DNA of 38,273 bases from Phycisphaerales bacterium. GTDB lineage: Bacteria > Planctomycetota > Phycisphaerae > WQYP01. The stretch is from the NCBI GenBank assembly GCA_013044165.1, contig JABEVB010000122.1, forward strand, positions 1-38,273, read 5' to 3'. This document shows positions 19,101 to 21,308 of this stretch, in pieces; positions within the stretch are counted from its first letter, which is position 1, and the number at the start of each line of letters is the position of its first letter. Made by a program: the position numbers and the translations under genes. A model generated the notes under the pieces. The model worked only from the letters and a program-made list of their open reading frames with translations, did not search any database and was not told where the DNA came from.

Positions 19101-19629
19101 CATTGCTTTTGGCGCAGCGCTTGCCGCCATTTATGTGCTGCTCGTCGCCCAGACCGGCTCATTCCTGCTGCCGCTGATTATCATGCTGGCCATTCCACTG
19201 ACCATTCCCGGCGTGATGCCGGGGTTCTGGCTGCTTAATGTTATCACCCGGCACAGCGTAGGCGGGTATGCCGATCCAATTTATTTTACGGCCACCGCCA
19301 TGATCGGCATGATTGCACTCTCCGGCATCGTGACCCGCAACGCCGTCATTCTCATAGATTTCATTCACCGGGCGCTGGCCCGCGGGCAAACGCTTTTCGA
19401 CGCTATTCTCGAAAGCTGCACCGTGCGTTTGCGCCCGATTTTACTCACCGCCGGGGCCGCCATGCTCTCGTCCATCCCCATATTGGTAGATCCAATATTT
19501 TCAGGCCTGGCATGGTCGCTGATCTTCGGACTTCTGGCCTCCACGCTCTTTACGCTCATTGTCATTCCCGTAACCTACTACATGCTATTCAAAAACCGCC
19601 CCGGCCACGGCATAAGCAAAATTGAGTAA
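16165..19629 (+). CDS. RND efflux pump permease (AcrB/HAE-like)
   Basis: An inner-membrane proton-driven pump of 1,154 residues, longer than AcrB (1,049). It has the expected plan: a first transmembrane helix (about 28-47), a large periplasmic domain, helices 2-6, then the same arrangement repeated in the second half. The TM4 motif GLLVDDPIVDVENI carries the proton-relay pair Asp452 and Asp453. The second half has the matching TM10 region (MIGMIALSGIVTRNAVILIDF). The N-terminal ITPREEDPQI motif is typical of a subgroup of HAE/HME-like permeases. Extra residues are visible before TM2 (about 290-330) and in the second periplasmic loop (about 915-955). No outer-membrane factor gene is adjacent, so the TolC-type channel must be encoded elsewhere. 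Substrate unknown. Confidence 0.95.
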   Translation: MSNNVASDAPADGFIERIVRAFLYSRLSIVLILIAVLLGAAALLITPREEDPQIVVPMVDIFVNFPGHSPTSVERLVTTPLESMLYQIHGVNHVYSISRRGGALVTVRFLVGQDVERSVVKVYRKINEHLDVVPPGVTGWVIRPETINDVPIVTLTLTSKTADPMMLRQVAAELAPRLATINNVSRAYVVGGLPRQVLIYPRLGAMQSAGVSLLQIQQAITAANVKVVAGAFDRSNHVVRVDVGKAFTHANELKTLVVAVHNNRPVYLSDVASIKDGAAEVSSYVWHSWGPARSVSANPNFPGHIIATPSIATPRRNGMVLQPPQGQSQPAVTIAIAKKAGSNAVWVARDVLAEARKLAPTMLPSNIQMIITRNSGLAANEKVNGLVDGLLVAVAIVMALLIIGLGWRESLVVAVAIPVVFGLTLAVNLLLGFTINRVTLFALILSLGLLVDDPIVDVENIARHFALSNKASRAIALKAISEILPPLVTATLAVILSFVPMFFITGMMGPYMRPMALNVPVAMIVSLLVAITITPWLSYQLLRHKHRETHDQALQEAADPHAVGDIKKTMRYKLFHPIMAPLLNRRWVRWSFFAVLGAVFVAAVILPALRKVPLKMLPFDNRNNLLLVLHLPRGTTVEQTNNVVEHMGRYLKTQPEVVDFTSYAGIAAPMDFNGLVRQYYLRNDANNAQITLDLAPKNNRAIQSHELALRMRNALTAIAHRYHARLQIVENPPGPPVLDTIVGEVYGAPNLPYAGIIAAARTLKARFAREPGVVDIDDSISHRAVRMVFRTDKTKAALNHITTDDIAQTIKLALAGTQVGLLHRPRSREPVGIILRLPISQRSSLQQLNQLWVGPPNGPLVQLGELGHWQTSTTSQPIYHKDLHRVVYVYADTAGRAPASVVLDVSADRVRSTTDTPAAAGMIPAGGGFVGTQKPRPLSDRSFIHNGSGIPWQVQPGIHINFAGEGEWRITIHVFRDLGIAFGAALAAIYVLLVAQTGSFLLPLIIMLAIPLTIPGVMPGFWLLNVITRHSVGGYADPIYFTATAMIGMIALSGIVTRNAVILIDFIHRALARGQTLFDAILESCTVRLRPILLTAGAAMLSSIPILVDPIFSGLAWSLIFGLLASTLFTLIVIPVTYYMLFKNRPGHGISKIE

Positions 19630-20348
19630 ACCGTAACCACTCCTGGCCGGTGCACCCCGCCGCACCGCGCATTGACATAAACCCCAAACTCCGTGAAATA
19701 CATTCATTGGGGCAACCCCCGTCGCGCAGCGCCCAATCATCTCGCCTGCGCCGCACCTACAGTCAAAGGCGTCTGTCCAGGTAATAGGAACTTTGCGATG
19801 GGACCAAAACGCACTGGATGCGCGATGTCGGGCCGAGACCGTGTCCGGCAGGGCGACACATCGAGACCCGGCAACTTAGCAGACGGAGTGCTTCCGACTC
19901 ACCCTCCGGGCGATACGCCTTTCGGCTTTCCTCGGCGGCGGGGCCTTGTCGGCGCATCATCTGCGCCAGATACGCTCTCGTTGCCGCTTTCTGATGAAAA
20001 ACAAAATTCATATCGTCGCAGACCTTCTATTACCTGGAGCGACTCCTGGATGCTCCATAGCACCTACAAATCCCAACCGCTCGCCCAAGCAACTAAATCG
20101 AAATTTCCGTTTGTATTGCAAATGATGCAGCGAGGTCTAAGTACTTCATGCGAGGTTAAGCTGCGGCTATAATTTCTGCTAGAATAGCATCCGCGCGACT
20201 GCTTTGACAGAATAAACGCGGACGTGTCGCTCGGAGGCATTTTCACGGTGCTTTCATATTCGATGCCGTATAAACAAGATGCCCATGCCAAATCGCACGC
20301 CCGCGCCGGGTGTGTAATATATGGACGTGTTTTGTGAGGTTCCCACAT
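19630..20348. other. Long non-coding stretch holding a structured element
   Basis: Between the pump gene and the next gene, 719 bases lack a convincing protein gene. The plus-strand frame 19693-20172 and the minus-strand frame 19763-20011 both run across the self-complementary element and look like chance frames. A small hairpin just after the pump stop (arms CGGTGC/GCACCG, 19649-19668) lacks a T-tract. A consensus TTGACA at 19672-19677 has no matching -10 box. TATAAT at 20168-20173 and TTGACA at 20204-20209 could belong to a promoter for the downstream secreted protein, but neither has a good partner box. Confidence 0.5.
19771..20043 (-). ncRNA. Candidate structured non-coding RNA (novel), closed by a long terminal stem
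   Basis: The two ends form a 12-bp perfect inverted repeat (TCCAGGTAATAG at 19776-19787, complement at 20027-20038). Pairing continues inward, with G-U wobbles and one 2x2 mismatch, to 19801/20013, and outward by GTC/GAC after a 2x2 mismatch. This gives about 27 base pairs. Inside are GGCGCA/TGCGCC (19951-19967), GCC/GGC (19918-19927), GAGT/ACTC (19886-19900) and CGATGT/ACATCG (19823-19828 with 19858-19863). Read on the minus strand, two of these hairpins have GNRA-type loops (GAAA and GGAA), which is why that strand is preferred. I do not recognise it: it does not match tmRNA, RNase P, 6S, SRP RNA or a common riboswitch by eye. A miniature inverted-repeat element is the alternative, but no target-site duplication is visible. 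Confidence 0.45.
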
Positions 20349-21308
20349 ATGAAAATCGCTATCGCTACAACCGTTGCTGCCCGCAACTGGAGACAATGGA
20401 TGGCCTGCAGCCTGCTGGGGGCTTTTCTCCTGCTGGCATTGTCGGCCGCCGGGCAAGCGGCCGAACTATCGCTAAGCGATATAAACCGTCTCATGGCCGC
20501 CAAGCACAATCATCAAGCGCTTCAGGCAATTACAAGGTTGCTCGCCCTGACGCCCGACAAGCTCGCCCAGCAACAAATTGGCCGCTACGATCTGCTCATG
20601 ATGCAAGGCCAGGCACTATTAAACATCTATGAAAATGCCAATGCCCGCACGGCCTACCTGGCGGCAGCCAAGGCCGCCGCCACGCCAAGCGAAGCCTGCA
20701 AAGCGAGAGCAACGGCCGAACTCATCGCGGCGTCTCGCGGCAGACAGTACGTTTCAGCATCGGGCGCCAAGTTCCCGTACATATCCTCTTCGCTGCGCCC
20801 GGCGGCATTTGCGGCATTTTATAAGGATGTATGGGCGTCGCTTTCCAAACGACTTAACGCCGCCAAAGCCAGCCACGAAATTGTGCCCTCTGTAGAGTTA
20901 CTACCCGATTTACGCACGGCGATAGATGTTGCGGCCAGTTTGCAAAGCTCCTCCGCAACCAAACAACCCGGTGAAGCCCTGACGTCCATTGCGGCACACA
21001 TGACACAATTAATCACCAGCGCCCTAAAAGCAATGCAGGCAAAGGCTTGGAGTATTAGCCGATCTGCCAACCAGCGCATAACCCGCACCGTAAACCATCG
21101 CCGTCAATCGTATCGTCGCGGGTTGTCGCGCAGCGAAATGGCAGAGCTTGAAACCATCGCCCGCACCTGCGATGAAATTGCGGCTCCGGTACACCAATTT
21201 GTCGTCACCTTTCCGGACTTTCCCAAACAGGTCGCCGCACTGAATGCAACACTTAAAACATCGCAAAAAATCTACCACTCCGCTGAAACCGCCCTGCAGG
21301 CGCGTTAA
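20349..21308 (+). CDS. Secreted alpha-helical protein of unknown function
   Basis: A 319-residue protein I do not recognise. The ATG at 20349 is chosen over an in-frame ATG 13 codons upstream because GTGAGG lies 9 nt before it and a signal peptide starts there. That signal has a basic N-terminus, a hydrophobic core at residues 19-34 and likely cleavage after AGQAA near residue 38. The mature part is Ala-rich and helical. Residues 40-130 resemble a pair of TPR-like helical hairpins (NHQALQAITRLLAL, then ENANARTAYLAAAKAA), but this is a weak impression. The C-terminal third is basic and then helical. It is monocistronic: 360 bp follow before rpsD, with no clear terminator. Confidence 0.75.
   Translation: MKIAIATTVAARNWRQWMACSLLGAFLLLALSAAGQAAELSLSDINRLMAAKHNHQALQAITRLLALTPDKLAQQQIGRYDLLMMQGQALLNIYENANARTAYLAAAKAAATPSEACKARATAELIAASRGRQYVSASGAKFPYISSSLRPAAFAAFYKDVWASLSKRLNAAKASHEIVPSVELLPDLRTAIDVAASLQSSSATKQPGEALTSIAAHMTQLITSALKAMQAKAWSISRSANQRITRTVNHRRQSYRRGLSRSEMAELETIARTCDEIAAPVHQFVVTFPDFPKQVAALNATLKTSQKIYHSAETALQAR

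Follow-up and report, generated by a model that had tools for sequence, protein, structure and literature searches.

The locus analysed here raises the question whether a long gene-free gap holds a structured RNA or a miniature transposable element (MITE). The window, i.e. the whole stretch of 38,273 nucleotides under study, contains a self-complementary element between an RND efflux gene (plus strand, ending at 19629; Pfam ACR_tran) and an open reading frame at 20349-21308, for which no Pfam match was obtained when a longer reading of it was searched. The first-pass annotation placed this gap at a convergent operon end, which is not the case, as both neighbours are encoded on the plus strand.

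The self-complementary element described there at 19771-20043 is real, but alignment with relatives shifts its limits to 19768-20046. It thus ends a few bases beyond the 12-bp perfect inverted repeat on each side. This repeat, TCCAGGTAATAG at 19776-19787 and CTATTACCTGGA at 20027-20038, was found again, and so was the long outer stem with its wobbles and small symmetric internal loops. The coordinates of the parts were transferred to window numbering from the consensus structure of alignment A1, which comprises 16 planctomycete copies; a second alignment, A2, comprises nine copies from other lineages.

19768-20046, no strand: whole element, a decayed copy of a probable IS1182-type MITE, 279 bp
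19768-19785, plus strand: left terminal inverted repeat GGCGTCTGTCCAGGTAAT, 4 mismatches to GGAGCCTGTCCGAGTAAT
20029-20046, minus strand: right terminal inverted repeat, ATTACCTGGAGCGACTCC on the plus strand, 5 mismatches
19768-19798, no strand: closing stem P1, left strand, pairing with 20016-20046 (A1 consensus structure)
20016-20046, no strand: closing stem P1, right strand (A1 consensus structure)
19911-20015, minus strand: long arm P2, labelled in the orientation of the alignment (minus strand); in the family with symmetric GA/GA-type internal loops
19902-19910, no strand: central mini-hairpin P3, CCC-nnn-GGG (A1 structure)
19799-19901, no strand: second long arm P4, whose GA-rich strand is the plus strand

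The window copy is flanked by CAAA and TGGA. Since its ends carry four and five mismatches and the TA duplication is no longer intact, this copy is old and decayed; it is able to form 76 of the 85 family consensus pairs. Its 82-aa minus-strand reading frame has no Pfam match, open frames vary between copies, and a conserved reading frame is absent from the element.

A dispersed repeat inserted at CTAG

The genome of the window (G000) carries a further copy at 87% identity and a third full-length copy (G000:C224). Similarity of the window copy to the copy in G000:C135 continues past the element for 18 bp on the left and 39 bp on the right, and thus the two may stem from a local duplication that included the flanks. 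For the window copy's own locus, no alignment downstream of the efflux gene was obtained in the sister species G001.

Matches to the element were obtained with blastn in 9 of 41 genomes, and the near relatives of the window genome are Phycisphaerae-like Planctomycetota assemblies. The end GGAGCCTGTCCGAGTAAT, allowing up to three mismatches, occurs 15 times in G000, 64 times in G001, 72 times in G019, 158 times in G022 and 307 times in G014, compared with 1, 5, 6, 3 and 44 occurrences of a reversed-pattern control. A two-ended pattern recovered 82 stretches of GTDB contigs from approximately 24 species. Full-length members are carried by Planctomycetota, Acidobacteria, Gemmatimonadota, Alphaproteobacteria and one Nitrospira, and on these matches the repeat spans at least five phyla of bacteria. 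In Nitrospira, the single copy (L063) shows the family ends, but its interior is different and weaker, which makes its membership in the cloverleaf family doubtful. Members measure 265-292 bp, a constancy that is no evidence in itself because the length range was preset by the search pattern. In one Acidobacteria genome, the copies are 97.8-99.6% identical at different sites and therefore recent. No copies were found in a plasmid collection, queried by blastn with two members, or in viral contigs, searched with the end pattern.

The element ends in GGAGYCTGTCCRAGTAAT and inserts at CTAG with duplication of TA, and the 18-nt ends are found family-wide. Of 75 distinct insertions, 29 are bordered by TA left and right, and the consensus reads CTA-element-TAG. 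Over all copies, position -1 is A in 74 of 83, position +1 is T in 80, position -3 is C in 61 and position +3 is G in 67. An empty site for one G001 copy with TA/TA flanks is provided by the window's own genome (G000:C196:17675-18028): after removal of one TA, the joined flanks align ungapped over 354 bases at 82% identity, and where the joined G001 sequence reads GGCTAG, the unoccupied locus has GGCCAG. A clean empty site did not emerge for another G001 copy. Judged from copies, ends and target sites, the element is a dispersed, non-coding mobile repeat, i.e. a MITE.

According to crude ORF calls, the genes around family copies are co-directional in 33 cases, convergent in 14 and divergent in 9. 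When interrupted genes were sought by joining the flanks of copies, only spurious open frames appeared, as is typical of high-GC DNA, and no gene disruption was shown.

Two side observations concern the surroundings of individual copies. In eight G014 copies (L035, L040, L054, L064, L070, L072, L078, L095), the element sits within a second, different short palindromic repeat, arranged as GCCGGCCAGCATA - element - TCGTGGCCGCG; the L078 copy is adjoined by an unoccupied version of this repeat, GCCGGCCAGCATGTTGGCCGCG. In L102, positions 819-892 match the group II intron family D1D4-4 below the gathering score (41.3 versus 49 bits, E 7e-6); the match stops at the contig end, near one element copy.

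The folded core

The region 19771-20043 folds with a minimum free energy of -117.4 kcal/mol on the plus and -110.2 kcal/mol on the minus strand. Both values lie beyond chance (z = -4.9 and -3.0, respectively, with zero shuffles as stable), and one Acidobacteria copy reaches z = -9.2. Members drawn from separate lineages adopt, with either strand, a common fold in which P1 encloses one long arm, a tiny CCCnnnGGG hairpin and a further long arm. The same four-way shape arises on both strands because two unequal hairpin arms are inverted around the tiny central hairpin. This fold is kept in a core of about 200 nt while the sequence changes. An earlier assignment of GNRA loops to the minus strand alone does not hold, as in the covariation-supported fold GCCGAAAGGC lies inside the long P2 stem and forms no tetraloop.

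Compensatory changes among the homologues are many. They affect 24 of 85 pairs in A1 and 41 of 79 pairs in A2. The covariation score of A1 is 0.217, compared with 0.116 (sd 0.006) for shuffled versions, a control that disregards the kinship of the copies, and at most 0.076 for slid versions, a control that favours the structure because the latter was derived from the same sequences. With the same two reservations, A2 scores 0.368 against 0.123 (sd 0.013) and at most 0.085. The impression that the element matches none of the common bacterial RNAs was borne out: zero Rfam families were hit at gathering score, and the lax threshold of E <= 10 returned chance-level matches only. Given the many compensatory changes and the lack of an Rfam match, conservation of the cloverleaf core as a structure is well supported by the alignments.

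Covariation alone does not settle whether the core acts as RNA, acts as single-stranded DNA or does not act at all. DNA-level correction can keep the arms of a palindrome complementary, and for this reason covariation is no proof of selection on the fold. The element could thus be an ordinary palindromic MITE with a functionless core, its arms being kept complementary by template switching or hairpin correction at replication, a reading to which we give somewhat less than even odds. It agrees with A2, where nearly all pair changes are two-sided with few one-sided G-U intermediates, as DNA-level correction predicts, with the like folding of both strands, and with the persistence of core-less copies. 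It fits less well with the long arms, which are separate and distinct hairpins: by eye, each half is of its own kind, and the two kinds stay joined across phyla. The arms also carry symmetric loops of the GA/GA kind, set apart by single pairs, which correction to a perfect palindrome would remove. A count over 19 representatives gives 79 GA-N-GA motifs for the inward-reading strands of the two halves, compared with 9 for the opposite strands; the purine bias of the inward strand (58%) explains, by our estimate, about a fourfold but not a ninefold excess. Finally, G-U exceeds A-C on the inward strand (53 versus 32 positions, p = 0.03, in a test that ignores kinship and sums three sets, with pairs picked by Watson-Crick majority). 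This weak excess hints at selection on a single strand.

The core-less copies deserve a closer description. In one Acidobacteria genome (G050), six copies of 52 bp (L274-L278, L283) consist of P1 alone, the whole core being gone. The deletion junction is GGCC, which is present on both sides of the core, and it is the same at all six sites, whose flanks differ; 270-bp full copies reside in the same genome. Elsewhere, forms of 49 and 91 bp consist of the two ends only (G041, L284; G043, L285 and L286). Such copies arise if movement requires no more than the ends, or if cores were lost in place. In the former case, the core is dispensable for mobility and its conservation needs another reason. 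Given these 49-52 bp derivatives, the core may serve as cargo and not as a site for the transposase.

The probable transposase partner

The ends, over 17-18 nt, and the CTA/TAG flanks recur in complete IS1182 elements, namely L235, L236, L237, L238/L239, L246 and ISMno8 of Methylobacterium nodulans (L230), an IS1182-family element with GGAGYCTGTCC ends. L235 carries GGAGTCTGTCCAAGTAAT at both ends and L237 carries GGAGCCTGTCCGAGTAAT at one end, and bit scores of 347-371 against the NCBIfam IS1182 model (cut-off 270) were obtained for the L235, L237 and ISMno8 transposases. The autonomous elements measure 1.4-1.7 kb and hold a transposase gene, whereas our element has no gene and an interior unlike theirs; the sequence in common is confined to about the terminal 18-24 nt. 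More distant IS1182 elements bear other ends, e.g., GAGCCTGTTGCA, and therefore the partner would be a single IS1182 subgroup. As ends and target also flank autonomous elements of this subgroup, the assignment as one of its MITEs is well supported, and an IS1182-family transposase most likely performs the move. No partner gene was detected in the genome of the window or in several other carriers, metagenome assemblies that are incomplete. A 985-bp end pair in G014:C88, considered as an autonomous element, was rejected, since it encloses a cupin-like reading frame and no transposase.

Further IS1182 loci were observed along the way. An identical 1732-bp element with identical flanks occurs in assemblies of two genera (G019:C74 and G018:C55; L206, L207), which reflects either a recent transfer or cross-binning; its transposase reading frame is interrupted. 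Partial or internally deleted elements with the same ends were seen at L242, L243 and L249 (G233, G257 and G173, respectively), L249 being a 1105-bp form with both ends intact.

IS630 also targets TA within CTAG, and IS630-type genes are present in several carrier genomes. A MITE of an IS630/Tc1-type element is nevertheless very unlikely: among 15 DDE_3 loci examined, none has matching ends that enclose the DDE_3 gene, the sole close end pair near such a locus belongs to the adjacent IS1182 element (G019:C74), and in several independent elements it is an IS1182 gene that the matching ends enclose. Partner searches with IS630 (DDE_3) and the general DDE_Tnp_1 model led to the ends at IS1182 loci only.

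The free-standing, non-mobile structured RNA gene or riboregulator proposed at first would account for covarying helices, missing coding capacity and an intergenic position, but is refuted by the many copies scattered through each genome, the resemblance of the ends to those of insertion sequences, the duplicated TA and the exact empty site, and neither a sigma-70-type promoter nor a terminator above chance was found near the window copy, so that we hold it to be barely conceivable. Multiple genomic copies with target-site duplications were named in the first-pass annotation as the mark of a miniature transposable element rather than an RNA gene, and these, with TA as the duplicated sequence, were found together with the IS1182 ends and the empty site. 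Of the proposed new structured RNA, the structure thus stands and the stand-alone RNA is unsupported; an RNA reading possibly survives for the core.

Taken as a whole, a MITE of an IS1182 subgroup with a cloverleaf core of about 200 nt is the best explanation, with a probability of roughly 0.87. The transposase of this subgroup would recognise the MITE ends in trans and insert the MITE at CTAG under duplication of TA. As the shape persists while the letters change, the folded form probably has some effect of its own, and we infer that selection acts on it. It would exert this effect in a transcript that runs across the element, or in a single strand exposed there; one candidate role is that of a self-contained site of RNase III-type processing, or of an insulator, which would function whichever way round the element is inserted. 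A tentative proposal, which we consider rather unlikely, is that the core is a functional nucleic-acid module: its cloverleaf, formed as RNA or as single-stranded DNA, would contain stacked GA/GA loops, be independent of orientation and travel as cargo between IS1182-type ends, with selection for its structure across several phyla. If true, the element would represent a mobile structured-RNA family and not junk between transposon ends.

Comparison with known MITE and palindrome families

The usual view of bacterial MITEs is that of lineage-specific junk enclosed by transposon ends. In the present family, conservation from Planctomycetota to Acidobacteria, Gemmatimonadota and Alphaproteobacteria concerns the covarying fold of the interior and not its sequence, while core-less copies coexist. 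This constitutes a natural experiment on whether the folded interior of a MITE is selected, and for what. In the literature searched, mostly openly readable papers, no link between IS1182 and such a MITE was found, and the end sequence was not printed in an IS1182-MITE context. With respect to this literature, the element adds a widespread IS1182-type MITE family.

Correia/NEMIS in Neisseria, RUP in Streptococcus, ERIC, and QMITE2 in Coxiella are non-coding, intergenic elements of 70-300 bp with terminal inverted repeats; stable folds are predicted for their transcripts, and Correia copies in mRNA are cut by RNase III (PMC10969869, PMC3733652). Our element resembles them in size class, terminal inverted repeats, lack of coding capacity and stable predicted fold. 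Their ends differ from those described here, and each of them is known from a single group, whereas our element maintains one covarying fold in several phyla. REP/REPIN palindromes, which have been reported in Planctomycetes (PMC3733652) and are associated with RAYT transposases, are likewise palindromic, intergenic and present in high copy. In contrast to our element of 265-292 bp with IS1182-type ends and TA duplication, REPs comprise 20-40 bp, carry a GTAG or CGTC tag and are linked to tyrosine transposases.
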